Positions 18,632 through 34,082 of a stretch of 64,000 nt of DNA are shown here, in pieces. The translations under genes were made by a program, and so were the position numbers. The notes beneath the pieces are model-generated. The model was given only the letters and a program-made list of their open reading frames with translations. It was not told the DNA's origin and ran no database searches. The first letter of the stretch is position 1; each line of letters begins with the position of its first letter. This DNA is from Flavobacteriales bacterium (GTDB taxonomy: Bacteria > Bacteroidota > Bacteroidia > Flavobacteriales_D > Parvicellaceae). The DNA is taken from NCBI GenBank assembly GCA_029251405.1, contig JAQXDK010000009.1, forward strand, positions 1 to 64,000, read 5' to 3'.

Positions 18632-18753
18632 TAATCATTTAATTACTACAAATTAATCAAAAATATAGCTAATTACTTCTAAAACCATAAAGAATAGACA
18701 ACTATAACAATAAGTTTTACAGATTGTGGTTAATATTGCATATTGAAAATTTC

Positions 18754-21411
18754 ATGAAAATATTTAAAAGTAGTTTCCTAGCTTTAATAAGCTTATTAGT
18801 TATTCAATGTTCAACTGAAAAAAACTCTATCATTCATAGAGGGTTTCACAACTTGCATGCTAAATATAATGGGTTTTTTAACGCTAACGAGCTCATCAAA
18901 TCTACTTACAATGATTTTTTAAAATCTCGTAAAGAAGATTACAACACCATTATTCCCATTTATCCTTTTACCACAATAGAGGAATCAAAAAACTGGTATG
19001 CTCCTATGGACACAGCATACAGGAAGTGTGAGTTAGTAGTATTCAAACACCGAATGCCACATAAGAAAAAGGGTAAATACAGAAACACTGAATGGGGGAA
19101 ATATGTTGATGACAATTGGCTTACACTAGGAAAAACAAGGTATTATAAACATGATTTTGCAAATGCACTTAAGATTTTCCAGCACATTGAAAATAAATTC
19201 CCTTTAGAAGATAATTACTTTTTAAGCATCTTTTGGCAAGCTAAAGTTCTCTTAGAGATGCAAGCATATGATGAATCAGAAGAGATATTATTGAACCTTT
19301 TGGTAAAATATGATGAGCAAGAAAAAAATCTAAAAAAACCGAAAAAAATAACTTTTAAAGAAAAAATAAATCTTTTAATTGATTATGACGATAGAATAGA
19401 ATATTTATCCTCTGTTGACAAAAAAATCCCAGAAAAAATTATAGATGAAATATATCCAACTCTTGGAGACTTATATATAAAGAGTAAAAACTTTAATAAG
19501 GCGGTAGAATATTTAGAAATTGCTCTCGACAGAAAATACAAAAGATCATTTAAAACTCGCTTAACCTTTATACTAGCTCAACTTTATCATATCAAAGGGA
19601 ATAATAAAGCCTCTTATTATTATCAAAAAGTAGTTGAAAGCAACCCTGAATATGAAATGGCTTTTCAAGCAAAAATAAACAGAGCGTTATCTTTTAGTGA
19701 AGGAGATTCAAAAGCAATAAGAATGCAACTCATGAAAATGCTTAAGGATGATAAAAACATAGAATATTTTGACCAAATATATTTTGCTTTAGCAGAAATT
19801 TCGTTTAAAGAAAATGAGCGAGATTTAGCAATAGAACAACTACAGAAATCAATCAATTTAAGTTTTAACGACCCTCAACAAAAAATAAAATCTATGAAAA
19901 GAATGGGAGATCTGTTTTACGCTGATGCTGATTATATCAATTCCTTTTTCTATTATGATTCCATTCAGAAAATTAACCTTAAAAAATATCCAAATAAAAA
20001 AGAGATTTTAAAAAAATACGTACTCTTAAATAATATTTTTTTAAATACGTTAACTGTTGAAAATAACGACAGTTTATTTAGTATTTGTAAACTTTCAGAG
20101 GATGAAAAAACTGAAAAATTATACGAAATTGCTGACCAACTAATCGCTCAAAAATCTAAGGAGGATAATTCTCAACTAATTGCTTCTACAAATAAAAGTT
20201 TGTCAACACCAAACAGTAACAGCGTTCTTAATGCAACTTTTTTTATATGGGATCAATTACTACTGGAAAGAGGTAAAAATGAATTTGAAAAAAAATGGGG
20301 AAAACTACCCTTTGGAGACAATTGGAGAAGGTCATCTAGAGCTTCGCTTTTCGTAGAGAATGAAGAAGAAACAGCTACATTTTCGTCAAACAATGTCGTT
20401 TTTGATGAACTTCTTAAGGGGTTGCCATGTGATAATAAAAGTTTAATGTCATCAATGAAAGATTCCATTTTATTATCTCTCTACAATCTCGGATTAATAC
20501 ACCATTATGAGACTGAAGATTTTTTAGCTGCTGAAAAGAATTTCCGACGAATTGTAACGAATTTTCAACCCAGCAAAGAATCCATTGCCTCCATATATGA
20601 GCTATACAATATTTACAAAATCTTAAATAACGAGGAGCAAAGTTCAGCAATGAAAAAGTTGTTATTAGAAAAGTATCCACAGAGTCAATATACTAAGCTA
20701 GTAGTAGGAGAACAAGGTGTAAGCAATTTTAAAAACACGGTAAATATTGAAAAAAAGTTTTATGCTGGACTATACAAAGAATTCCAAACTGGTAATTTTA
20801 ATTTTGTTCTTAATAATTGTAACAAAAAATTAAAAGATTCTAGTAATCTTCTTTTTTGTCAATATGGGATTTTAAAAGCTTATACATTAAAGAAATTAAA
20901 GGACAGTTCTTTGAATGATAATGAACTAATAGAAACTTTGAAATTAGTAGTTAACAAGTGTATGGGAACTGCTTATGGAGAACAGGCTCTTTCTGTGCTA
21001 AATTCACTCAAAATAAATAGCGCTAGTAAATTAATGGCCAAAGAAAACTGGAAATTCAACTACAGTCCTGACACCATTCACTACTTTATAATGATTGCGC
21101 CTAAGGGAGGTTTTAAACTTAATAAAGCAAAAAATAATATTGCCGACTTTAATATGTCCAATTTTTCCAACTTGAAATTGAAAGTTTCCAATACGTTTTT
21201 GAATACATCTGATCAAATGATTCTAGTAAAATCCTTTGAAAATAGCCAAAGCGCTATGGATTATTATTTAGGGTTTAAAGTCAATAAAGGAAACGTCAAA
21301 AATTATAAAAATGAAATGTTTTTTGTTTTATCACCTGAAAACTTAAAAGAACTTTACCGTGAAAGAAATAGTGTGAAATATTTAAAGTTTTTTAATGAAT
21401 TTTATAAATAA
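18754..21411 (+). CDS. SprE/PorW-like TPR lipoprotein of the type IX secretion/gliding system
   Basis: Large TPR-repeat lipoprotein. SprE of Flavobacterium and PorW of Porphyromonas are needed for type IX secretion and gliding. I use the ATG at 18754 (885 residues) because it starts a lipoprotein signal peptide whose Cys is residue 19 (VIQC). A TTG at 18724 would add ten residues. The segment after the Cys, HRGFHNLHAKYNGFFNANE, is the signature of this family (HN..AKYN..FN.NE). Several TPR-like helix pairs follow through about residue 650. The next gene is bactofilin, a neighbour also seen for this family. Two proteins with T9SS sorting domains are encoded elsewhere in the window, consistent with a working system. 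Confidence 0.85.
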   Translation: MKIFKSSFLALISLLVIQCSTEKNSIIHRGFHNLHAKYNGFFNANELIKSTYNDFLKSRKEDYNTIIPIYPFTTIEESKNWYAPMDTAYRKCELVVFKHRMPHKKKGKYRNTEWGKYVDDNWLTLGKTRYYKHDFANALKIFQHIENKFPLEDNYFLSIFWQAKVLLEMQAYDESEEILLNLLVKYDEQEKNLKKPKKITFKEKINLLIDYDDRIEYLSSVDKKIPEKIIDEIYPTLGDLYIKSKNFNKAVEYLEIALDRKYKRSFKTRLTFILAQLYHIKGNNKASYYYQKVVESNPEYEMAFQAKINRALSFSEGDSKAIRMQLMKMLKDDKNIEYFDQIYFALAEISFKENERDLAIEQLQKSINLSFNDPQQKIKSMKRMGDLFYADADYINSFFYYDSIQKINLKKYPNKKEILKKYVLLNNIFLNTLTVENNDSLFSICKLSEDEKTEKLYEIADQLIAQKSKEDNSQLIASTNKSLSTPNSNSVLNATFFIWDQLLLERGKNEFEKKWGKLPFGDNWRRSSRASLFVENEEETATFSSNNVVFDELLKGLPCDNKSLMSSMKDSILLSLYNLGLIHHYETEDFLAAEKNFRRIVTNFQPSKESIASIYELYNIYKILNNEEQSSAMKKLLLEKYPQSQYTKLVVGEQGVSNFKNTVNIEKKFYAGLYKEFQTGNFNFVLNNCNKKLKDSSNLLFCQYGILKAYTLKKLKDSSLNDNELIETLKLVVNKCMGTAYGEQALSVLNSLKINSASKLMAKENWKFNYSPDTIHYFIMIAPKGGFKLNKAKNNIADFNMSNFSNLKLKVSNTFLNTSDQMILVKSFENSQSAMDYYLGFKVNKGNVKNYKNEMFFVLSPENLKELYRERNSVKYLKFFNEFYK

Positions 21412-21432
21412 TTTAAAATTTCATGGTTTTTG

Positions 21433-21440
21433 TATCTTTG
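21433..21440 (+). promoter_or_regulatory. -7 box upstream of bactofilin
   Basis: TATCTTTG is an exact TAnnTTTG match, 12 bases before the first ATG of the bactofilin gene. The distance is so short that the true translation start may be one of the ATGs at 21477 or 21480. No clear -33 TTTG is present. Confidence 0.5.
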
Positions 21441-21452
21441 TAAAAATATATT

Positions 21453-21890
21453 ATGGTATTCAAATCAGATAAAAGTATGATGAATTCTAACAACCAGTCA
21501 CCGGATAGGCTAAATAGAATAGTTGAAGGTACTCATATAGAAGGAGACATTAAGTCAGATTCTAACATTAGAATTGACGGCTATGTCAAGGGGACAATTT
21601 CTGTGAAAGGTAGATTAGTCTTAGGTCCAACCGGGAAAATTGATGGAGATATTAAATGTAAAAATGCTGATTTAGAGGGGAAATTAAATGGTACAATTGA
21701 AGTAGATGAATTGTTGTCTCTGAAAAGTACTGCTAAACTACAAGGAGAAATCTCTACGAACAAATTAGCTATAGAGCCTGGTGCAATATTCTCTGGGAAC
21801 TGTAAAATGGGGGCTGTATTGAAGGACCTTACATCTGCAGATGATGCTCGAAATGTCGAACATGAATCTCTGAAAGAGAAAACAGCTTAA
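21453..21890 (+). CDS. bactofilin (polymer-forming cytoskeletal protein)
   Basis: Bactofilins polymerise without nucleotide and scaffold cell-wall or envelope enzymes. The 145 residues have a short disordered N-terminus and the right-handed beta-helix core from about residue 24 (GTHIEGDIKSDSNIRIDGYVKGTI) with the repeating G-x-I/L pattern through GNCKMG. The in-frame ATGs at 21477 and 21480 are possible alternative starts, given the promoter-like box at 21433. It follows sprE/porW by 41 bp and faces the M23 peptidase gene across the sprE locus. Confidence 0.95.
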   Translation: MVFKSDKSMMNSNNQSPDRLNRIVEGTHIEGDIKSDSNIRIDGYVKGTISVKGRLVLGPTGKIDGDIKCKNADLEGKLNGTIEVDELLSLKSTAKLQGEISTNKLAIEPGAIFSGNCKMGAVLKDLTSADDARNVEHESLKEKTA

Positions 21891-21952
21891 TTTTTATAAT
21901 TGACATTTTTTTTACCACATTTTATAAATTAAAATAACAAATCATTTAAAAT

Positions 21953-22780
21953 ATGAACACGAAATTACTTGTACCCACTGACTTTACTGATGTTGCTCAT
22001 TCTGCAATTCAACATGCAGTAAAATTTGCTGACATTATTAATGCTGAGGTTGTGCTCCTACACGTTGTAAGCTCTAGGGAAGAAGTTAACGATGCAAAAC
22101 AGAAGCTTGAAACCGAGACCTCTTTAGGAAAATCATTTAACAACTCTTGCTCCTTTAAAACAGTAGTCAGAATAGGTAACATATTTGATGACATTGGAGA
22201 TGTTGCTTCTGAATTAGGTATTTCACTTATTTTTATGGGAACTCATGGGGCAAGTAGATGGCAAAAAATCAAAGGAAGTGATGCTTTAAAAGTCATAACC
22301 AATTCTCCTGTGCCAATGATTATAGTCCAAGAAAAATTAATGACAGACACAGGATATAATCACATTGTTGTTCCGTTAGATTTAAATATAGAGACTAAAC
22401 AAAAAATAGAACTTGTAGCTAAAATTGCCCAATACTTTGACTCTCAAGTACATATAATTACCCTTGACGAAAATGATGATTTTGCAAAAAACAAATTGAA
22501 AGCCAATCAAATTTGGGCAAGTAATTACCTAGAAGAAAAAAATGTAAAGCACTCATCTCATTTAGTGGAGAAAGGGCACTCTTTATCAGAAGGTATCTTT
22601 AAAATATCTGTAAAGGTTGATGCTGATTTAATTGCAATTATGAATCTTCAGGACGATTCAATATTAGGAATCCTAGAAAACTCTTTTCAGGAAGATATTG
22701 TTGCAAATAAATTAATGGTTCCAGTGTTGTGCGTTAATCCTAATAGTGTAACAAAATCTTCATTCACCTTCTTTACTTAG
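21953..22780 (+). CDS. universal stress protein, two UspA domains
   Basis: Cytoplasmic stress-linked protein of 275 residues with two tandem UspA domains. The first begins LLVPTDFTDVAHSAIQHAVKFA and has the GTHGASRWQKIKGSDA region (about 97-112), a variant of the ATP-binding G-x2-G-x9-G(S/T) motif. The second begins HIVVPLDLNIETKQKI (about 134) and lacks a clear nucleotide-binding motif. Its role here is unknown; it lies just upstream of lysS on the same strand, 12 bp apart. Confidence 0.92.
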   Translation: MNTKLLVPTDFTDVAHSAIQHAVKFADIINAEVVLLHVVSSREEVNDAKQKLETETSLGKSFNNSCSFKTVVRIGNIFDDIGDVASELGISLIFMGTHGASRWQKIKGSDALKVITNSPVPMIIVQEKLMTDTGYNHIVVPLDLNIETKQKIELVAKIAQYFDSQVHIITLDENDDFAKNKLKANQIWASNYLEEKNVKHSSHLVEKGHSLSEGIFKISVKVDADLIAIMNLQDDSILGILENSFQEDIVANKLMVPVLCVNPNSVTKSSFTFFT

Positions 22781-22792
22781 AATATATTATTT

Positions 22793-24493
22793 ATGCTTTC
22801 AGAACAAGAGCAGATCAGAAGAGAAAGTCTTCAAAAAATTATTGCATATGGAATCAATCCATATCCAGCAGAAGAATTTAAAACAACACATTATTCCCTT
22901 GACATTCTAAAAAAATATAATGAGGATGAAAAAGTTATAATTGCTGGAAGACTCATGCGAAGAAAAATTCAAGGTAAAGCTAGCTTTGGAACTCTTCAAG
23001 ACGCAAAAGGAAGAATTCAAATATATTTAAATAGAGATGTCATTTGTCCTGATGAAGACAAGTCCATGTATAATGATGTCTTTAAAAAATGGTTGGACCT
23101 CGGTGATATTTTAGGAATTGAAGGGAAGGTTTTTAAAACAATGGTTGGAGAAATTTCAATAAACGTAGAAAAAATACATCTTCTTAGTAAATCTCTAAAA
23201 CCGCTTCCTCAGCCAAAAAAGGACTCTGAAGGAGTAACTCATGATGCTTTTAACGATCCAGAATTAAGATATAGAAGAAGATACGTTGACCTTGTTGTAA
23301 ATGATCATGTGAAAGAAACTTTTATTAAACGGTCTAAGATCATAAATAGCATGAGAAAATTCCTTTCTCAAAAAGAGTACATAGAAGTTGAAACTCCCAT
23401 TTTACAAAGTATTCCAGGTGGAGCTGCAGCAAGACCGTTTGTTACCCATCACAATGCGCTAGATGTTCCTTTATACTTAAGAATTGCAAATGAATTGTAC
23501 CTAAAAAGGTTAATTGTAGGAGGGTTTGATGGGGTCTATGAGTTTGCAAAAGACTTTAGAAACGAAGGGATGGATAAAACTCATAATCCAGAATTTACTC
23601 AAATGGAGATGTACGTTGCTTACAAAGACTACCATTGGATGATGAATTTTACTGAAGAAATGTTGGAATTTATTTGTTTAGAAGTTTTGGGAACGACGAA
23701 TGTTAATATTGGAGGTGAAATCGTAAGTTTTAAAAAACCTTTCAAGAGGATTTCTATGATAGATTCTATAAAAGAACACACTGGAATTGATATTTCTAAG
23801 ATGTCCGAATTAGAGCTTAGAAAAACCTGTGAAAAATTAGATGTTGCTACTGATGCATCTATGGGAAAAGGAAAGTTAATTGATGAGATTTTTGGTGAAA
23901 AATGTGAGTCTAACTACATTCAACCTACGTTTATTACTGATTATCCAGTTGAAATGTCTCCTTTATGTAAAAAACATAGAGACAACCCCGAGCTAACTGA
24001 AAGGTTTGAGCTCATGGTAAATGGCAAAGAACTGGCCAATGCTTATTCTGAATTAAATGACCCTATAGATCAAAAGTCAAGATTTGAAGATCAAGTAAAA
24101 CTTGCAGAAAAAGGGGATGACGAAGCCATGTTTATAGATCTAGATTTTATAAGGGCATTGGAGTACGGAATGCCTCCAACATCTGGAATGGGAATTGGTA
24201 TTGACAGACTCGTCATGTTTTTATGCAATCAGGCTTCGATACAAGAAGTTTTATTTTTTCCTCAAATGAAGCCAGAAAAATGGGATACAGGTCCTAATAA
24301 AAATGAATATTTAGAACTGAATATTTCTGAAACTTGGATTCAGCCTATTTATGAAAGTGGTTACACAACTAAAGAAATCCTTTTAGAAGCAAAACCAACC
24401 GCTGTACACCAAAAATTAAATGGTTATCGAAAAAAAAATAAACTTGACATCCCTCCAATACTACTCGAAGAGGTTCAATCTTGGTATAATTAA
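22793..24493 (+). CDS. lysS: lysyl-tRNA synthetase, class II
   Basis: Charges tRNA-Lys. It is 566 residues with the N-terminal OB-fold anticodon-binding domain (IIAGRLMRRKIQGKASFGTLQD), class II motif 2 (FRNEGMDKTHNPEFTQMEMY, near 253-272) and motif 3 (GMGIGIDRLVMFL). The final 60-70 residues after motif 3 are an added C-terminal tail that makes it longer than the E. coli enzyme; I believe such tails are common in Bacteroidetes. Start ATG is clear. Confidence 0.97.
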   Translation: MLSEQEQIRRESLQKIIAYGINPYPAEEFKTTHYSLDILKKYNEDEKVIIAGRLMRRKIQGKASFGTLQDAKGRIQIYLNRDVICPDEDKSMYNDVFKKWLDLGDILGIEGKVFKTMVGEISINVEKIHLLSKSLKPLPQPKKDSEGVTHDAFNDPELRYRRRYVDLVVNDHVKETFIKRSKIINSMRKFLSQKEYIEVETPILQSIPGGAAARPFVTHHNALDVPLYLRIANELYLKRLIVGGFDGVYEFAKDFRNEGMDKTHNPEFTQMEMYVAYKDYHWMMNFTEEMLEFICLEVLGTTNVNIGGEIVSFKKPFKRISMIDSIKEHTGIDISKMSELELRKTCEKLDVATDASMGKGKLIDEIFGEKCESNYIQPTFITDYPVEMSPLCKKHRDNPELTERFELMVNGKELANAYSELNDPIDQKSRFEDQVKLAEKGDDEAMFIDLDFIRALEYGMPPTSGMGIGIDRLVMFLCNQASIQEVLFFPQMKPEKWDTGPNKNEYLELNISETWIQPIYESGYTTKEILLEAKPTAVHQKLNGYRKKNKLDIPPILLEEVQSWYN

Positions 24494-24594: not shown

Positions 24595-25836
24595 ATGTTG
24601 ATCGGTTTTCATTCAAGCATTAAGACATTTACTTTATACGGTAAGAGAATTTATTTTTTATTCTTGTTGTTGTTTTTTAATGTAAATGTTTTTGCTGCAC
24701 AAGAGCAGCATCCATTTCTTTTTAATCCTTTAGACTTTAATGTATCCAATTATGAATCTGATCAAGAATTAATCTTGCCTAATGAATTAGGTATGTTCAA
24801 AGACTACTCCAACTTATTGGATTTTTTAATTGATAAAAAACATGGTGAATTTAGTGTTGTTGATTCGATAATGAACAGTAGTGCCATTGATCAAAAACTA
24901 AGTTATTTACCTTTAATTATATCCGGGTATAAAAGACGAAACAAAGGAATTTGGAATTTAAATTACATAACCGGGAGTTCTAATCTTCAAATCAACCATT
25001 ACATTGATGAACGTCTAGATGTTAAAAAATCAACTATTTGTGCTATAGCATATTTAAAATTTTTGAAAAAAAAATACAAATCTAATAACTGGGTAATGCT
25101 AGCTTTCCTAACGTCCCCCAGTTACGTTTCAAATGTTTTAAATTCTTCTAACTCTAATAAATGGGAAGAGGGAGAGAAGTATATAGATGAAAAATATTTA
25201 AATAACATAAGGTTGCTAAATTGGATTTCTATTTCTGCGCGAGATAAAAGCAATAAAAGAGCTAAAATAAATGTGAAAACTCCAAAAAAATATCTTTACA
25301 CCTTTAGTTGTAATTTATTCTTTGATGCCCTTTCACAATTTAAAAAAATTGACTTTGAAGAAGTATTAAACGATAATCCAGTATTAATAAATCAATTTAT
25401 TCCCAAAGAATATCCTATACATCTAAAAAAACGAATTGGGAATTTCATTGAAAACAATCTTAAAGAAATAGTAAGTTTCCAAGATTCTATGATTGGTAAT
25501 TTATACTTTAAAAAAGTTAGTCGAGATCGTTCATTTCATGTGGTTGTTCAGGGAGATGTCCTTGGTCAAATTGCTATTGACAACCATGTAACTGTTAAAG
25601 ATCTTATGAAATGGAATAATTTAAAAAACACAACCATTTACCAAGGCCAAAAACTAGTGTTAGTTGAAAAAGGTATTATTAGCAAAGAGACACTACCAAT
25701 GTACAAAATATCGGATGAACGTTTCTTTTGGGAAATTTTGAAAAAAAAAAACTATCTAACCATCAAAGACTTGTGTAACTATAATACTTATCAGGAACTA
25801 AAACCACAGCAGCTATTAATAATAAAAGAAAAATAA
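24595..25836 (+). CDS. LysM protein with degenerate MltD-type lytic transglycosylase domain
   Basis: Exported protein of 413 residues. A basic N-terminus and hydrophobic segment (20-34) act as signal peptide or anchor. Residues about 95-185 match the MltD/SLT lytic transglycosylase pattern: LSYLPLIISGYK, GIW, then HYIDERLDVKKST and AIAYLKFLKKKY. In active members the first motif reads LP-x-x-E-S with the catalytic Glu; here Ile109 replaces it, so muramidase activity is probably lost. One good LysM domain (about 314-357) and a weaker second one (about 370-411) could bind peptidoglycan. Its 3' end overlaps the start of the SGNH gene. Followed by two SGNH genes and an MBOAT gene, it may be a scaffold that positions them on the cell wall; that is inference. 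Confidence 0.8.
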   Translation: MLIGFHSSIKTFTLYGKRIYFLFLLLFFNVNVFAAQEQHPFLFNPLDFNVSNYESDQELILPNELGMFKDYSNLLDFLIDKKHGEFSVVDSIMNSSAIDQKLSYLPLIISGYKRRNKGIWNLNYITGSSNLQINHYIDERLDVKKSTICAIAYLKFLKKKYKSNNWVMLAFLTSPSYVSNVLNSSNSNKWEEGEKYIDEKYLNNIRLLNWISISARDKSNKRAKINVKTPKKYLYTFSCNLFFDALSQFKKIDFEEVLNDNPVLINQFIPKEYPIHLKKRIGNFIENNLKEIVSFQDSMIGNLYFKKVSRDRSFHVVVQGDVLGQIAIDNHVTVKDLMKWNNLKNTTIYQGQKLVLVEKGIISKETLPMYKISDERFFWEILKKKNYLTIKDLCNYNTYQELKPQQLLIIKEK

Positions 25837-27293
25837 CGCCATTTTATCCACTAGGGTTTTTATTAGGGTTATGCATTCTAATATTTATTCTGTTTATTAG
25901 TTTTCCTAATAATGGGATAAAAATAGGGTTAATTGAGCTAACTTTTCTATCTAAAGCGGATTTTAAAAACGATGTCGTTATTGAAGAAAAGTTTATTGCA
26001 GAAGCTCCTGTAGTTATTAATTACGATTCCATAAATAGAGCTAATCAAATTATTTTAGACAGCTTGAATACGCTTAAAGTTTTAAAATTAAAACACATAA
26101 GAGATTCCATTATTTTTTCTGAAAAAAATATTCAATATCCATCTAATAATCCTGAACTACTTTATCGTTTTTTTAAAAAATTAGATAATGCTAAATATAA
26201 AAAAGTAAGGATCATGCACTATGGAGACTCTCAAATTGAGGGAGACAGGATTTCGGGGAGGCTTCGACAGCGACTTCAAAATAAATTTGGTGGTAAAGGA
26301 CCTGGGTTATTTGCAATAATTCCAGCTACTAGAAAAATTAGCCTTAATAACACCTCATCAAAAAACTGGGTAAGAAAAACCGGGTTTGGTCCCTATATTG
26401 ATAAAAAAGTGAATCATAAAAAATATGGTGCTTTATTTTCATTCTGTAAAATGGCTGAAGATTCTAGCTATATAGATTCTAATTTTATATTCAATGGAGA
26501 AATAACCATCAAAAAACCTACCAAATCTTATAAGCTTTGCAAAAGTTTTAAAACATTAAAAATTTATTATTCATGTGAAGAAAATACGGTGCTAAGACTA
26601 CTTATTAACGACTCTATTTTTCATGTCGACACCTTAAAAAAGACCGGGGAAATTAGCCTTAAGCAATTAGACTTTAGTAAGGGGCCAAGAGAACTAAAGT
26701 TGCAATTTTGTGCTGATAAAAGTCCTTTAATTTACGGTATTTCTATGGAAGGTGAAAAGGGCGTTGTAGTAGATAATATTCCTTTAAGAGGAGCTTCAGG
26801 TACCGAATTTTCAAAAGTAGACTTCAACTCTTTAAGTCAAATGCAAAAAATTCTAAATCCAGAACTAATTATATTGGAATTTGGAGGTAATACTATTCCT
26901 TATATTAAAACTCGAGAGCGAGCTGTTAAGTATGGAAACTATTTTAAAAAGCAAATTAAAAAACTACAACAAATTAATCCTAATGCGGTGTTTTTAATTA
27001 TTGGACCTGCAGACATGGCTATGAAACAAAAAACAGAATTCATAACATATCCTATTTTGGAAGATGTGATCTCGGTACTTAAAAATGCAGCTTTTGAAAC
27101 CAATTCTTGTTTCTGGGACATGTATTTAAATATGGGCGGAGAAAATTCAATCCAAAAATGGGTGGCTGAGAAACCTTCCTTGGCTGCAAGAGATTACATT
27201 CATTTCACGAACAGGGGAGCTCAGAAGATTGCCGACTATTTTATTGAAGACTTTATGCGTGACTATGAAAACTATTTAAAGCAAAAAAAGTGA
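25815..27293 (+). CDS. membrane-anchored SGNH/GDSL hydrolase-like protein (ATT start proposed)
   Basis: Serine esterase/acetyltransferase fold protein. The catalytic Ser is in MHYGDSQ (Ser139 in my numbering), GGN forms the oxyanion block, and the C-terminal RDYIH motif gives Asp460 and His463, so the triad looks intact. The frame stays open upstream of the first TTG (26064) back to 25785 and encodes a basic start and one membrane segment (GFLLGLCILIFILFISF). No ATG, GTG or TTG exists there; the best start is ATT at 25815, giving 492 residues and a 22-bp overlap with the LysM gene. If that is wrong the protein starts at 26064 with 409 residues and no anchor. The stop overlaps the next gene by 4 bp. 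It likely works with the MBOAT protein as a PatB/AlgJ-type partner (inference). Confidence 0.82.
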   Translation: MNNKRKITPFYPLGFLLGLCILIFILFISFPNNGIKIGLIELTFLSKADFKNDVVIEEKFIAEAPVVINYDSINRANQIILDSLNTLKVLKLKHIRDSIIFSEKNIQYPSNNPELLYRFFKKLDNAKYKKVRIMHYGDSQIEGDRISGRLRQRLQNKFGGKGPGLFAIIPATRKISLNNTSSKNWVRKTGFGPYIDKKVNHKKYGALFSFCKMAEDSSYIDSNFIFNGEITIKKPTKSYKLCKSFKTLKIYYSCEENTVLRLLINDSIFHVDTLKKTGEISLKQLDFSKGPRELKLQFCADKSPLIYGISMEGEKGVVVDNIPLRGASGTEFSKVDFNSLSQMQKILNPELIILEFGGNTIPYIKTRERAVKYGNYFKKQIKKLQQINPNAVFLIIGPADMAMKQKTEFITYPILEDVISVLKNAAFETNSCFWDMYLNMGGENSIQKWVAEKPSLAARDYIHFTNRGAQKIADYFIEDFMRDYENYLKQKK

Positions 27294-28525
27294 TTATAAA
27301 ACCGAAAATACTTCTTTTTGTAATCTTCGTTTATTCGTATATCAACCTACACAGTCAATTTAGTTACCCTAACTATTTTAAATATCCATTTATTAACCAA
27401 GTCGAAAATCATTTAAAAATTTATGGTACTAAATCTTGGACACAATTTTTTAAAAAATTAGACAGTCAATATTTAAATGGAAACGAAAAAATCAACATCA
27501 TGCATTTTGGAGGGTCTCATATACAGGCAGATATTTGGTCCAATAAAATGCGAACTAATTTTCAAAACACTTTACCTCATAATCAATCAGGAAGAGGTTT
27601 TATTTTCCCATTCAGATTGATTAATTCTAACGGTTCTTCATCAGTAAAATCCAGTCATATTGGAAGATGGAAAGGGTTTAGAAACTCTGTTAATTCTCAC
27701 TCTGGTCCATTTGGATTATTAGGAGCAAGAGCCGAATTAATAGACAGTTTTTCTGTTATTAAAGTTTGGAACGATCATTCATTAAATAGTTGTGAATCTT
27801 TTAATTCCTTAACTGTTTTTTACAAAGACTCCAGTAATAGTTATGATGTTAATGTTTTAGTGGATTCCGGAAATACATTTAGTACAAGTAGACAAAGAGA
27901 ATCTATTACTTTTTCCTTTGAAAAAACTATAGATTCCATAGCGATTGAAGTTAAAAAAAATAAATCCACTGTTTCCAATTTTAGTTTTTTTGGTCTTCTT
28001 TTAGATAACGACTGTAAGGGTATAACCTACCATTCTATTGGTGTGAATGGGGCTAGTGTGAAAAGTTATTTAAGAGGCGAAGACTTCACTCATCAATTAG
28101 CCTTAATTAAACCTGACTTAGTAATATTGTCTATTGGAATAAATGATGCATATGAAGAAAACTTTAATGATGAATACTTCTACTCTAGTTATGATAGCTT
28201 AATTAATAAAATTAGATCTGTTAATCCTCAAGTAGCTATTCTTCTTACAACAAATAATGATAGTTATTACAAAAGAGAATACCCTAATCAAAGGGCTCTA
28301 CAAGTACAAAAAAAAATGTATGAGTTGGCTGAAAATAAAGATTTAGCAGTTTGGGACATGTTTGAAGTGATGGGGGGGCTAAATTCTATTAGAAATTGGG
28401 AAAAAAATAATTTAGCCAAAAAAGATTTAATTCATTTGACTGCTAAGGGCTACAACTTAATTGGAGATTTATTATTTGAAGCTCTTATGAAATCCTATTT
28501 AAAACATAAAAAACCCCATGACTGA
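27290..28525 (+). CDS. secreted SGNH/GDSL hydrolase-like protein
   Basis: Second SGNH-fold protein, 411 residues, related to the preceding one. It has a signal peptide (MIIKPKILLFVIFVYSYINLHSQ), a block I motif MHFGGSH with Ser76 as nucleophile (GGS in place of GDS), a block III GIND, and a block V KDLIH with Asp379 and His382. The start is a GTG overlapping the previous stop by 4 bp, and the 3' end overlaps the MBOAT start by 8 bp, so all three are probably translated together. SGNH proteins beside an MBOAT are typical of O-acetylation systems such as PatA/PatB and AlgI/AlgJ/AlgX. Two copies could split acetyl transfer and removal, or act on two positions; this is inference. Confidence 0.85.
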   Translation: MIIKPKILLFVIFVYSYINLHSQFSYPNYFKYPFINQVENHLKIYGTKSWTQFFKKLDSQYLNGNEKINIMHFGGSHIQADIWSNKMRTNFQNTLPHNQSGRGFIFPFRLINSNGSSSVKSSHIGRWKGFRNSVNSHSGPFGLLGARAELIDSFSVIKVWNDHSLNSCESFNSLTVFYKDSSNSYDVNVLVDSGNTFSTSRQRESITFSFEKTIDSIAIEVKKNKSTVSNFSFFGLLLDNDCKGITYHSIGVNGASVKSYLRGEDFTHQLALIKPDLVILSIGINDAYEENFNDEYFYSSYDSLINKIRSVNPQVAILLTTNNDSYYKREYPNQRALQVQKKMYELAENKDLAVWDMFEVMGGLNSIRNWEKNNLAKKDLIHLTAKGYNLIGDLLFEALMKSYLKHKKPHD

Positions 28526-30248
28526 TTTTTCTATAGATAAATTTTGTAGATGGATTTTTAAACCGTTTTTAAATTCATTAGAACATCCGATGATCTTTAC
28601 AGAGTATCCTTTTTGGATCTTTTTCTTATTTGTTCTTTTGGGATACAGCTTTCTTCATAAAAAACCTCAAATACGCAGTGTTTTTCTATTCTTGATAAGC
28701 TTGTATTTTTATTTTAAAACCAGTGGTTTTTTCTTTTCAATATTGTTGTTTTCAACAATAGTTGATTTCTATTTAGGTAAAGCTATTTATAAATCTAAAA
28801 AAGACCTCACTGCTAAAATTGTGTTGGGGTTAAGTATTGCTTCTAATTTAATCATCTTAATTTACTTTAAGTATGCTTATTTTTTCACCGATTCTTTTAA
28901 TGCTATTATTGGCTCAGATTGGCATCCAATAAATCATTTTGCAGAATTAACAAATCAATTTACCGGTTCAAGTTTTAGAGTAGATAAAATTTTATTACCT
29001 GTAGGTATTTCTTTTTATACCTTCCAAACAATGTCCTACTCTATTGATATTTACAGAAAAAAACTAAGTCCAGTAAAAAACATTTTTGACTTTGGATTTT
29101 ACGTATCCTTTTTCCCGCAACTAGTCGCAGGCCCTATAGTCAGAGCTTCCGAATTTATTCCGCAAATTCAAAAACCCTACAACATTAGTAAACAAGAATT
29201 TGGAATGGCAATATTTTGGATTCTCAATGGGTTATTAAAGAAATTTCTTTTAGCTGATTATATTGCTGTAAATTTTGTAGATCGTGTCTTTGACAACCCA
29301 GGAATGTTTTCTGGATTTGAAAACCTAATGGCTCTTTATGGATATTCCTTACAAGTTTATGCGGATTTTTCAGGCTATACAGATATTGCAATTGGGATAG
29401 CTTTACTCTTGGGTTTTAGACTTCCCAAAAACTTCAACTCTCCTTACAAGGCCGACAACTGTGGAGAGTTTTGGAAGAGATGGCATATTTCACTCTCTTC
29501 TTGGTTAAAGGACTATTTATATATTCCTATGGGCGGTAATAGGGGCGGTTCTGTCTTTAGCTATATAACTTTGTCTTTAATTGTTCTTTTTGTTTATTTA
29601 ATCAGCGGCTCACTCGCTTTACTTTTTGGAATTCTAGCTGTTGTTTTTCTAACCTTAATATTTGGCGAGTTATTTCCAAAATTTAACAAATGGTATTTAA
29701 CAAATATCAACATTATGCTTACTATGTTAATTGGTGGGCTTTGGCATGGTGCTAGTTGGAATTTTGTTTTGTGGGGTGGATTAAATGGGTTAGGTATTGT
29801 CACTTATAAACTCTGGAAAAGAGTGAGTCCGTGGAAAAATAAATTAAATTGGTTCAATAGGATTTGGGGAATTATAATCACATTTAATTTTGTAACTTTT
29901 ACAAGAATCTGGTTTAGAAGTGGTTCTATAAACTCATGGGACCAAATAGATGAATCTCACAATATTATTTCTGAATGGTTCACTGCTAATGAGATTCTTA
30001 ATCAATTGTTTTTTAACTTTCAGTGGAAGTTAATTGGAGAAGTTTTAACAGTATACAGCAATGTGTTTATGGTGATTAGTATAGGATTTGCAATTCATTT
30101 TATACCAGAAAAATGGAAAATTTGGTACAGAGAACTGTTCTCGAATTCATCAGTAATTTTGCAATTACTAATTAGCTTTATCGCTGTATTTTTTATGTAT
30201 CAAATTGCCTCAACTAGTTTACAACCCTTTATTTATTTCCAATTCTAA
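28518..30248 (+). CDS. MBOAT family O-acyltransferase (AlgI-like)
   Basis: Integral membrane acyltransferase that moves acetyl groups across the membrane to extracytoplasmic glycans. It has 576 residues, many hydrophobic segments, the AlgI signature VGISFYTFQTMSYSIDIYR (about 162-180), FFPQLVAGPI, and the catalytic His410 in GGLWHGASWNF. Alginate synthesis genes are absent here, so the target is probably peptidoglycan or another surface glycan. The adjacent LysM protein points to peptidoglycan. It overlaps the upstream SGNH gene by 8 bp and is followed after 6 bp by the WYL regulator. Confidence 0.95.
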   Translation: MTDFSIDKFCRWIFKPFLNSLEHPMIFTEYPFWIFFLFVLLGYSFLHKKPQIRSVFLFLISLYFYFKTSGFFFSILLFSTIVDFYLGKAIYKSKKDLTAKIVLGLSIASNLIILIYFKYAYFFTDSFNAIIGSDWHPINHFAELTNQFTGSSFRVDKILLPVGISFYTFQTMSYSIDIYRKKLSPVKNIFDFGFYVSFFPQLVAGPIVRASEFIPQIQKPYNISKQEFGMAIFWILNGLLKKFLLADYIAVNFVDRVFDNPGMFSGFENLMALYGYSLQVYADFSGYTDIAIGIALLLGFRLPKNFNSPYKADNCGEFWKRWHISLSSWLKDYLYIPMGGNRGGSVFSYITLSLIVLFVYLISGSLALLFGILAVVFLTLIFGELFPKFNKWYLTNINIMLTMLIGGLWHGASWNFVLWGGLNGLGIVTYKLWKRVSPWKNKLNWFNRIWGIIITFNFVTFTRIWFRSGSINSWDQIDESHNIISEWFTANEILNQLFFNFQWKLIGEVLTVYSNVFMVISIGFAIHFIPEKWKIWYRELFSNSSVILQLLISFIAVFFMYQIASTSLQPFIYFQF

Positions 30249-30254
30249 ACAGAT

Positions 30255-31274
30255 ATGCCAGCAATTAAAAACGCATTACTAAGGTATCGTATTATAGACA
30301 GGGCTATAAGAAACGAATATACTCCATTCCCCAGTAAGAGCATTTTAAGACAAATGTGTGAAGAAGAAATTTTTGGCAGCTCTGAAGGAGTTCATATTTG
30401 TGACTCTACAATTGAAAAAGATTTGTTTTCTATGCGAATGGAGCACGATGCTCCAATTTCCTACAGTAAAAAAGAAAGAGGATATTACTACTCTGATAAT
30501 AGTTTTTCTATGGACGATGTTCCACTAACTGAGAAAGACATCAATGCAATTAAAGCTGCCTCTACTATTTTACATCAATTTAAAAATACCAGTTTGTTTG
30601 GACAATACGAATTTGCCATTCAAAAAATTTTAGACCGTGCTGTAACTTCAGACAAACCTTCCTCGAAGGAAGAAGATGAAATTATCCAGTTTGAGTCTCT
30701 TCCCACTATTAGAGGAAATGAAAATTTAGAACTTTTTATTTCTGCCATTAAAAATAAAAAAATAGTCCAATTCAAGTACTTTAACTATTCTAAAAACAAA
30801 AAATCCATTAGAAGAATGCATCCATATCTTCTTAAAGAATATAGGAATCGATGGTACTTAATTGGGAAAAGTGAATTGAAAGAAAAAGTAATAACTTTTG
30901 GTTTAGATCGTATTTTTGATCCCCTTCTTTTAGAACAGAACTTTGTAATAGAATCTGATTTTTCATCTGATAATTTTTTTAAGCACTCGATTGGAATTAC
31001 TGTTTTTAATGAACTTCCAGAAGAAATTATTATTGAAACAACGCCCATATTATCAAAATATTTAGCTTCTCAACCGCTTCATCATTCCCAAAAGATTGAT
31101 TCTGTGAGTGATGATGGAAGTCATATTTTTTCCTTGCACTTATTAATTACTTACGAATTAAAAATGCTACTGCTTGGATTTGGGAAAGACTGCAAAGTAA
31201 TCGCCCCGAAAAGTTTACAAAAACAAGTGCTACATGACTTGAAAGAACTTATTTCTCGTTACGAAAATGAATGA
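30255..31274 (+). CDS. WYL domain transcriptional regulator
   Basis: DNA-binding regulator of 339 residues with an N-terminal HTH-type region (about 1-85), a linker, and a WYL domain with the namesake Trp200-Tyr201-Leu202 in RNRWYLIGKSE. A WCX-like C-terminal part follows. WYL regulators bind ligands or nucleic acids and control diverse genes. It is 6 bp downstream of the MBOAT gene and overlaps yyaL-like by 8 bp, so it is part of this transcript; whether it controls it is unknown. Confidence 0.92.
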   Translation: MPAIKNALLRYRIIDRAIRNEYTPFPSKSILRQMCEEEIFGSSEGVHICDSTIEKDLFSMRMEHDAPISYSKKERGYYYSDNSFSMDDVPLTEKDINAIKAASTILHQFKNTSLFGQYEFAIQKILDRAVTSDKPSSKEEDEIIQFESLPTIRGNENLELFISAIKNKKIVQFKYFNYSKNKKSIRRMHPYLLKEYRNRWYLIGKSELKEKVITFGLDRIFDPLLLEQNFVIESDFSSDNFFKHSIGITVFNELPEEIIIETTPILSKYLASQPLHHSQKIDSVSDDGSHIFSLHLLITYELKMLLLGFGKDCKVIAPKSLQKQVLHDLKELISRYENE

Positions 31275-33186
31275 ACTAGAAGATTCAGATAGCGCTTACT
31301 TACAACACCATGCGAAAAATCCAATTCATTGGAAGAAATGGTCTAAAAAAAACATCAACGAATCATTAAAAAAAAACCAACTTATTGTATTAAGTATTGG
31401 TTATTCCGCTTGTCATTGGTGCCATGTTATGGAAAAAGAAGCCTTCAGTAACGAGTTAATTGCAAGTTTTATGAACGAGCACTTTACTTGTGTCAAAGTG
31501 GACAGGGAAGAACATCCAGAAATAGATAATATTTATATGGACTTTATATTAGACACTAAGGGAAATGGAGGATGGCCGCTCAATTGTATTTTGCTTCCGG
31601 ATACCAAGCCGATTTTTGCAGGGACTTATTATAATTCTAATGACTGGTTAAGTTTAATATCAAAATTTAAAGCTATTTATGAAGAAACACCTCATAAATT
31701 AATAGAATTTTCTAAAAATTATATGTCTCACATTAGTAAAGAAAAAAATACAAGACATGGCCCCTGCTTAGAAATTAAAAACTTATTTCAAGATTGGAAG
31801 AATTTTTTAGATCTTAAAGATGGAGGAATTAAGTCTAATCAGAAATTTCCAATGCCTAATTTTCTTATTTTTTTAATTCGTAACCAAAGCTCTGAAAATT
31901 GGACTAAGTTTTTAGAGAAAACTTTAAAAAAGATTACTCAGAAAGGGTTATACGATCACTTAGAAGGAGGGTTTTTTAGATATTGTATTGATTCGGAATG
32001 GAATATACCGCACTTTGAAAAAATGCTTTATGATAATGCACAATTGATTAGTGTTTTAGCTCAATACGATGCGAGTAATAATGGAAATAAACACCATGAA
32101 ATGGTTCAAAAAACTATTGACTTTTGGTTATCGATTAAAAATAAATCTGATTTATTTCCGGCGTCTTTAGATGCTGATAATAACGAAGGTGAAGGCGGAT
32201 ACTATTGGTTTAAAAAAGAGGATGTTAGAGTTTTACTATCCAATAAAGAACAAAAAGACTTAGAAAATAAATTTGGGATGACAACAGAGTTGGTTATTGA
32301 TGATAAATGGCACATTCATGACGATCAATCAAAAACCGTAAAAAATAAAAAAGCTTTATTAAAAAAGTTAAATAATCTAAGAGCAAAAAACTCCTTCCCG
32401 GATATTGATAAAAAAGCCATTTGCAGCTGGAATTGTATGATGGTTGTTGGTCTAATCGATGCTGGAATTGCCTATAAAAATTCCCAATGGCTTCAATTAG
32501 CGGAACAAACGTTGAATTCGATATTGAATCATTTTATTATCCAAAACAAATGTCAAAGATTGGTATACTCTAATGATAAAATAGAAGGAACTCTAGAAGA
32601 CTACAGTTGGCTAATAGCAGCTACTTTAAAAATGAGTAGTATTATAAATTCGAGCTTTTGGTTGAAACAAAGTCTATTCTGGGGTGGTGTTTCAATTGAA
32701 AATTTTTGGAGTGAAAAAAAGGGTTTATTTGCTTACTCCAGTAATAAAGAACTTTACAAGCAATCTTTTGAAATAGAAGATCAGGTAATTCCCTCTAGCA
32801 ATTCAACTATGGCACATAATTTATACGAACTATATCGTATTTCTAATGATGTTAAATTTTTAAAAATTGTTAAAATAATGCTGTCAAAGGTTGCCGGTAA
32901 AGCAAAAGAATGGTTGCCAAATTTTACTAACTGGATGTTATTACAACAAAAATTAGAAGTGAATTTGTTACAATATATTCTTGTTGGTTTTAAATTAGAA
33001 GATATACTTACTCTTCACACAGAAAAAAGAAACTTAGATTTTATTTATATATTGGAGAAGCCCTCAGATATTTTTATTTTTCAAGAAAAGTATACAGAAA
33101 AGGTTAAAAATATTTTTATTTGCAATGAAAATACGTGTCTTTCAAAAATTGATACTATTAAAGAAGCTTTGAATGTGAAAATATGA
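31267..33186 (+). CDS. YyaL/DUF255-type thioredoxin-domain protein
   Basis: Cytoplasmic protein of 639 residues with an N-terminal thioredoxin-like domain carrying SACHWCHVM (CxxC, about residues 48-56) and VDREEHPEI, and a C-terminal (alpha/alpha)6-barrel region like N-acylglucosamine 2-epimerase (YDNAQL, ASLDADNNEGEGGYYW). This is the family of B. subtilis YyaL and human SPATA20; its reaction is not established. The start ATG overlaps the WYL gene by 8 bp and the stop overlaps the next gene by 4 bp. Confidence 0.93.
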   Translation: MNELEDSDSAYLQHHAKNPIHWKKWSKKNINESLKKNQLIVLSIGYSACHWCHVMEKEAFSNELIASFMNEHFTCVKVDREEHPEIDNIYMDFILDTKGNGGWPLNCILLPDTKPIFAGTYYNSNDWLSLISKFKAIYEETPHKLIEFSKNYMSHISKEKNTRHGPCLEIKNLFQDWKNFLDLKDGGIKSNQKFPMPNFLIFLIRNQSSENWTKFLEKTLKKITQKGLYDHLEGGFFRYCIDSEWNIPHFEKMLYDNAQLISVLAQYDASNNGNKHHEMVQKTIDFWLSIKNKSDLFPASLDADNNEGEGGYYWFKKEDVRVLLSNKEQKDLENKFGMTTELVIDDKWHIHDDQSKTVKNKKALLKKLNNLRAKNSFPDIDKKAICSWNCMMVVGLIDAGIAYKNSQWLQLAEQTLNSILNHFIIQNKCQRLVYSNDKIEGTLEDYSWLIAATLKMSSIINSSFWLKQSLFWGGVSIENFWSEKKGLFAYSSNKELYKQSFEIEDQVIPSSNSTMAHNLYELYRISNDVKFLKIVKIMLSKVAGKAKEWLPNFTNWMLLQQKLEVNLLQYILVGFKLEDILTLHTEKRNLDFIYILEKPSDIFIFQEKYTEKVKNIFICNENTCLSKIDTIKEALNVKI

Positions 33187-34082
33187 TGCGTTTTATTGTT
33201 GTATTAATGTGGTTTTTTGGAGTAGAGTTCCATGCTCAAATGTTGGATAATGAGAAGGGTGATTTATTTTCTGAAACTCCTTTTTTTAATTCTAAATACA
33301 TACGATCTGTTAATTTAAAATCTATTAAGGGAACTATTTCCACTAAAAAAGAATTAGGTACAATTAAAAATATTGGTAAGAAAGAAGCTTATATTTTTAA
33401 TCGAGATGGTGAGCTTACTACTCATTATTTATCTAATAAATTAAATAGTAAAAATGACACTGTTTTTACTTTTTATGAATATAATAGCGATAAAAAAAAC
33501 ACAGTCTACAGAGTCAGTGATTCCTACGGTTTTTATTCTTACACTAATAGTTATGATTCTCAAAAAAGAATTATCTCCAAAACTTTTTCTCGCGAGAAAA
33601 ACTCTTCTGGAAGTAAAAGAAATTTCAAGCTAGCAGAAAAATATATCATTTTTGAGGAAGTTTATAAATATTCCAGTAAAGATTCCATCGATGTAGTTAC
33701 TACCTTAAATAGCAACGGAAGACCTTACCAAATAGAAAAAAAGTATTATAATAAAAATGGGTATTTAAGAAAATCTGACAATAGGTTGTTGATTTCCAAT
33801 AAAAAAAGCCACAAGATTTTTAGTTATAATGATAAAGGGTTTTTAAAATCTGTGAAATATTTCAAAGAAAAAGATTCCCTGGCAGCAAAAGAAATTAAGT
33901 TCGATTATGACGAGTGGGGCAACGTAACATTTATAGATGAATATAAAAATAATGAAAGGATTACTCATAAAGAGCTTCTCTATAACCCCTCAAACTTAAT
34001 TTTAAAAACTTTATTGTCACAAGACTTAGTGTCCAACGTAATTACTATTACCAAGTTTAAACCTGAATTTTATAATCATTAA
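33183..34082 (+). CDS. secreted hypothetical protein with YD-like repeats
   Basis: I do not recognise a named family. A short signal peptide (MMRFIVVLMWFFGVEFHAQ) is followed by about 280 residues rich in Lys, Ser, Asn and Tyr. Several stretches resemble the Y-D/N-x-x-G-x-L pattern of YD or toxin_RHS-like repeats: YEYNSDKKNT, YDSQKRI, YNKNGYLRKS, YNDKGFLKS, YDEWGNVT. Bacteroidetes have many secreted proteins of this kind with unknown function. It overlaps the yyaL-like stop by 4 bp. A second ATG directly follows the first. Confidence 0.75.
   Translation: MMRFIVVLMWFFGVEFHAQMLDNEKGDLFSETPFFNSKYIRSVNLKSIKGTISTKKELGTIKNIGKKEAYIFNRDGELTTHYLSNKLNSKNDTVFTFYEYNSDKKNTVYRVSDSYGFYSYTNSYDSQKRIISKTFSREKNSSGSKRNFKLAEKYIIFEEVYKYSSKDSIDVVTTLNSNGRPYQIEKKYYNKNGYLRKSDNRLLISNKKSHKIFSYNDKGFLKSVKYFKEKDSLAAKEIKFDYDEWGNVTFIDEYKNNERITHKELLYNPSNLILKTLLSQDLVSNVITITKFKPEFYNH

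Follow-up and report, generated by a model that had tools for sequence, protein, structure and literature searches.

The analysed stretch of DNA (the window, 64,000 nucleotides from a Flavobacteriales bacterium) carries four neighbouring, overlapping genes, and we consider it probable, at roughly 80%, that together they O-acetylate peptidoglycan, as a Bacteroidota-type cluster (ape1b-ape1c-pat) joined by an extra LysM subunit. Gene order, folds, motifs and fusions were computed directly. According to the reading frames of the window and Pfam, all four genes lie on the + strand and encode a LysM/SLT protein of 413 amino acids (24595-25836), an SGNH protein referred to as SGNH1 (25815-27293, read from an inferred ATT start), a second SGNH protein, SGNH2 (27290-28525), and a PatA/DltB-type MBOAT protein of 576 amino acids (28518-30248). 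The overlaps are 22 nt between the LysM gene and SGNH1, 4 nt between SGNH1 and SGNH2, and 8 nt between SGNH2 and the MBOAT gene. The Pfam matches were LysM (E 8e-11), SLT (a weak 3e-5), MBOAT (2e-23) and Lipase_GDSL_2, the last with 7e-17 for SGNH2 and 9e-7, below the Pfam cut-off, for SGNH1. These matches and coordinates confirm the four overlapping genes and their folds as given in a preliminary description of this DNA, and sequence alignments likewise agree with what it had described or implied for the SGNH triads, for His410 of the MBOAT and for the glutamate missing from the transglycosylase. No glycan-synthesis genes were seen adjoining the cassette among the window frames and their Pfam matches. 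The flanking genes at 18724-24493 (a TPR protein, a bactofilin-like protein, Usp and lysS) and at 30255-34082 (a WYL regulator, a DUF255-like protein and orf299) also keep their order within the genus.

Both SGNH proteins are of the Ape1 type, as judged by sequence and predicted fold. SGNH1 consists of an N-terminal membrane helix followed by an SGNH domain of this type, and SGNH2 has a signal peptide in front of such a domain; in each, a beta module is inserted after block I and the SGNH triad is present, the combination that defines the Ape1 family. The SGNH1 triad (Ser 26229, Asp 27192 and His 27201) is invariant in 47 sequences, and in the alignment of SGNH2 (Ser 27515, Asp 28424 and His 28433) Ser and His are invariant in 44 sequences and Asp in 41. 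By sequence, the nearest solved relative of both SGNH families is Ape1, 4K3U (E 3e-46 and 7.5e-38), which the window SGNH2 itself matches with E 5e-23. When the predicted folds were compared with the same structure, the Z-scores were 39.4 for SGNH2 and 39.6 for SGNH1 (model pLDDT 91.5) over 342 residues. SGNH1 does not share the overall fold of PatB, against which its model gave a Z-score of 16.0 over 188 residues that cover the core only; PatB did not appear among the fold matches listed for SGNH2, which is no proof of absence. In SGNH transferases of the PatB type, the glycine of block II is replaced by serine or asparagine. When block II was assigned by alignment to Ape1 and by motif, this replacement was found in neither protein, Gly254 of SGNH2 and Gly324/Gly327 of SGNH1 being invariant. 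The order of the triad also differs from that of AlgJ, in which D190 and H192 come before S288 (PMC4148444), whereas Ser precedes Asp and His in both SGNH1 and SGNH2. The comparison with AlgJ/AlgX and PatB in the preliminary description is thus not borne out for the SGNH proteins. Our searches of the genome found no GDSL_2 gene beyond SGNH1 and SGNH2 and no PatB, the usual acetyl-transferring partner, and therefore a protein of the Ape1 fold is probably the transferase.

The start codon of SGNH1 needed separate consideration. The first ATG, GTG or TTG codon of its frame is at 26064, inside the protein and downstream of the membrane helix. An ATT codon stands at 25815-25817 in the window, with an equivalent site in L033-L045, L047, L048 and L052. 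Since ATT was found at the same position in all 17 members of the window family for which the motif could be located, the 22-nt overlap is constant wherever the LysM gene is present on the contig, and the frame is closed two codons upstream of the ATT in several members, this non-standard ATT at 25815 is in all likelihood the SGNH1 start, being the sole plausible one, and it corrects the earlier boundary. More distant relatives have ATG (L046 and L049) or TTG (L050). The missing standard start also raised the idea of a LysM-SGNH1 frameshift fusion, which we rejected because the membrane helix would then place SGNH1 in the cytoplasm; there is also no conserved slippery site. An assembly error is likewise rejected, as 16 relatives share this ATT and overlap. 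ATT starts are rare, and that of SGNH1 may limit or couple translation.

The MBOAT protein, whose nearest solved structure is DltB, combines the two features expected of a PatA-type acyltransferase, a catalytic histidine (His410, codon 29745) and a C-terminal FxYxxF acyl-tyrosine motif, here FIYFQF with Tyr573 (codon 30234). The WHG motif with the catalytic histidine, noted as intact in the preliminary description, is conserved in 62 of 62 MBOAT sequences. All but two of these also keep the terminal Tyr and Phe (60 of 62); neither exception is complete, as one runs off the end of its contig and the other has an interrupted frame. PatA auto-acetylates the tyrosine of FxYxxF, from which PatB takes the acetyl group as donor (PMC12148441). 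No second MBOAT gene was found in the genome, and the separate MBOAT type of about 480 amino acids that relatives carry is absent from it; a single AT3 gene scored above the cut-off (contig 3), together with one weak match.

Throughout the genus and family of the window the four genes keep their order, and they do so where the flanks differ (L046, L049 and L050), in eight other families of the class (L089, L090, L092, L093, L094, L097, L099 and L101) and in Maribellus luteus (L191). The search for this order across Bacteroidota, which the preliminary description had proposed, thus turned out positive. Chance does not account for an arrangement that persists throughout the genus, in different orders and amid unrelated flanks. 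SGNH1-SGNH2-MBOAT without an adjacent LysM gene is spread more widely, including Apibacter muscae and Adhaeribacter terrigena, and many cassettes have no LysM at all, whether adjacent or fused. The search for SGNH2 homologues, which also picks up paralogues, gave hits in 145 of the 253 good genomes of the class. The SGNH1-SGNH2-MBOAT core is therefore a conserved Bacteroidota cassette. Two kinds of fusion were observed. LysM repeats are fused to the C-terminus of SGNH2 in at least six genomes (L057, L116, L117, L120, L121, L122 and L125), and in the family f24 SGNH2 and MBOAT share one frame of about 940 amino acids; this was read directly in L100 (7938-10754, 938 amino acids), and frame lengths are similar in other f24 genomes. 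Ten upstream genes were inspected in loci where no LysM gene adjoins the cassette. Most looked unrelated and one belonged to the FtsW/RodA family; the latter lies directly upstream of the cassette (L112:10899-12188).

The three-gene core is already known. Clusters for peptidoglycan O-acetylation (OAP), ape1b-ape1c-pat, were described in 2005 by Weadge, Pfeffer and Clarke in Bacteroides (B. thetaiotaomicron and B. fragilis) and Porphyromonas, and peptidoglycan O-acetylation is given there as 69% in B. fragilis and 27% in B. thetaiotaomicron (PMC1199599). The suggestion of novelty in the preliminary description accordingly does not hold for the core. The window locus shares with these clusters a Pat-type MBOAT beside SGNH proteins of the Ape1 family in the order SGNH-SGNH-MBOAT, and the lack of a PatB/Ape2-type gene. 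The gene for PatB was named ape2 in 2005, and its product was later shown to be a transferase (PMC6174289). Since the Bacteroides clusters have no ape2 (PMC1199599), the identity of the transferase was left open there, and we found no paper that settles which Bacteroides SGNH protein adds the acetyl group. When FimA, present in the Bacteroides ihuae control, was used as a marker, it picked out the family f44, in which the locus L228 shows RND efflux genes followed by SGNH1 (452 amino acids), SGNH2 (335 amino acids, lacking the insert) and an MBOAT with FIYFQF at its end. By its arrangement and the FimA marker, this locus fits the 2005 description of the Bacteroides clusters. The window differs from that description in two respects: its SGNH2 has the insert of about 100 amino acids that the second SGNH protein there is described as lacking, and it has a LysM/pseudo-transglycosylase gene, of which the available part makes no mention for ape1b-ape1c-pat (PMC1199599). 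The less familiar features are the LysM/MltD-like partner without its glutamate and the missing PatB.

This partner has the architecture of MltD, with a signal peptide, an MltD-like SLT domain and two C-terminal LysM-like stretches, and its closest solved chain, 8RHE, is a LysM protein. It lacks the catalytic glutamate of the MltD type, Ile109 (codon 24919-24921) standing at that position, and 28 of 31 homologues have likewise lost it. In the LysM tree, read without a root, the other three homologues, which bear the glutamate, group in one clade, so that either ancestral loss or regain may account for the pattern. At the matching motif, the sole other SLT protein of the genome reads Ile-Glu-Ser. 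A four-gene form with the glutamate retained was seen in L172, a metagenome-assembled genome labelled Bacteroides sp.; it resembles the G332/Draconibacterium type, and its label may be wrong. As the glutamate is lost, the LysM/pseudo-MltD protein should not cut glycan, to go by its sequence. It may direct the machinery to peptidoglycan, an idea made more likely by the LysM repeats fused to SGNH2 in other lineages. A partnership of this kind has a precedent in the lytic transglycosylase LtgA of N. meningitidis, which binds and stimulates the Ape1 esterase (PMC7083599); unlike LtgA, an active enzyme, the window protein has lost its glutamate and carries LysM domains. Lytic transglycosylases require a free C6 hydroxyl, and O-acetylation blocks the same hydroxyl (PMC1199599). 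Because both reactions involve this group, a transglycosylase fold without glutamate is plausible as its presenter. In the most specific form of this idea, which we put forward as speculative and rather unlikely in its entirety, the protein would be the glycan-presenting subunit of a PatB-free O-acetyltransferase, gripping the MurNAc whose C6 hydroxyl serves cleavage in an active enzyme and offering this hydroxyl to an SGNH transferase of the Ape1 fold.

Based on these observations, a peptidoglycan O-acetylation cluster could work as follows. Using His410, the MBOAT protein would draw acetyl from cytoplasmic acetyl-CoA and attach it, on the periplasmic side, to Tyr573 in the C-terminal FIYFQF. 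The serine of one of the Ape1-fold SGNH proteins would then accept the acetyl, and that protein would pass it to the MurNAc C6 hydroxyl; SGNH2 is the most likely candidate, given its fusions to MBOAT in f24 and to LysM in other lineages. The anchored SGNH1 would be an editing esterase or else a relay, the role proposed for AlgJ, and the LysM/pseudo-MltD protein would hold glycan strands for the SGNH proteins. What is inferred here is that the group is acetyl, that it goes to MurNAc C6, which way each SGNH enzyme works, and that the LysM protein serves as a scaffold. Peptidoglycan as the target of envelope O-acetylation, already proposed in the preliminary description, is supported by the Ape1 homology, the LysM domains, the LysM-SGNH2 fusions and the matching OAP arrangement.

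Such a cluster resembles the PatA/PatB/Ape1 systems of Neisseria and Campylobacter in its MBOAT with catalytic histidine and FxYxxF C-terminus and in its Ape1-fold SGNH, but no PatB was found in the genome, two Ape1-type proteins replace one PatB and one Ape1, and the gene order is different. It also resembles AlgI/AlgJ/AlgX in combining a single MBOAT with two SGNH proteins, one anchored and one soluble, which raises the possibility of a two-step relay of the kind proposed for alginate. SGNH1 would then take acetyl from the MBOAT, in the manner proposed for AlgJ, and SGNH2, near a glycan binder, would acetylate the polymer, in the manner proposed for AlgX. In the alginate system AlgJ is tethered and AlgX has a binding module, and acetylation is lost with active-site variants of either (PMC4148444); the triads are conserved in both window proteins. 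Nevertheless, both folds are of the Ape1 type, the Neisseria layout is a transferase and esterase pair, and the partner fused to MBOAT in f24 is SGNH2, not SGNH1, so that we regard the relay as possible, if somewhat unlikely. Alternatively, both SGNH proteins could be esterases, because neither carries the altered oxyanion residue of PatB, and the transfer would fall to the MBOAT itself or to an unlinked protein, for which the AT3 protein of contig 3 is a candidate. The names Ape1b and Ape1c given in 2005 imply esterases, both proteins have the Ape1 fold with the canonical glycine at the presumed oxyanion position, and the genome has one clear AT3 gene. This arrangement seems distinctly unlikely, since SGNH2 is fused with MBOAT in f24, known MBOAT systems pass the acyl group from the C-terminal tyrosine to an SGNH protein (PMC12148441), and the genome search yielded no further GDSL_2 protein. 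It is very improbable that the substrate of the cassette is instead a different envelope glycan (capsule, LPS or exopolysaccharide), with the LysM gene a neighbour of no shared function: MBOAT-SGNH pairs do modify many polymers (PMC12148441) and many cassettes are without LysM, but the SGNH domains are Ape1-type, at least six genomes have LysM-SGNH2 fusions, no glycan-synthesis genes adjoin the window locus, and the cassette MBOAT is the only one found, with the separate type of relatives absent.

The peptidoglycan of Bacteroides is heavily O-acetylated, a modification that blocks lysozyme. Within the O-acetylation cluster proposed here, the SGNH2-MBOAT and LysM-SGNH2 fusions point to SGNH2 as the protein that adds acetyl. 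If this is true, an esterase fold would have become a transferase and a wall-cutting fold a non-cutting scaffold, both in the same operon.
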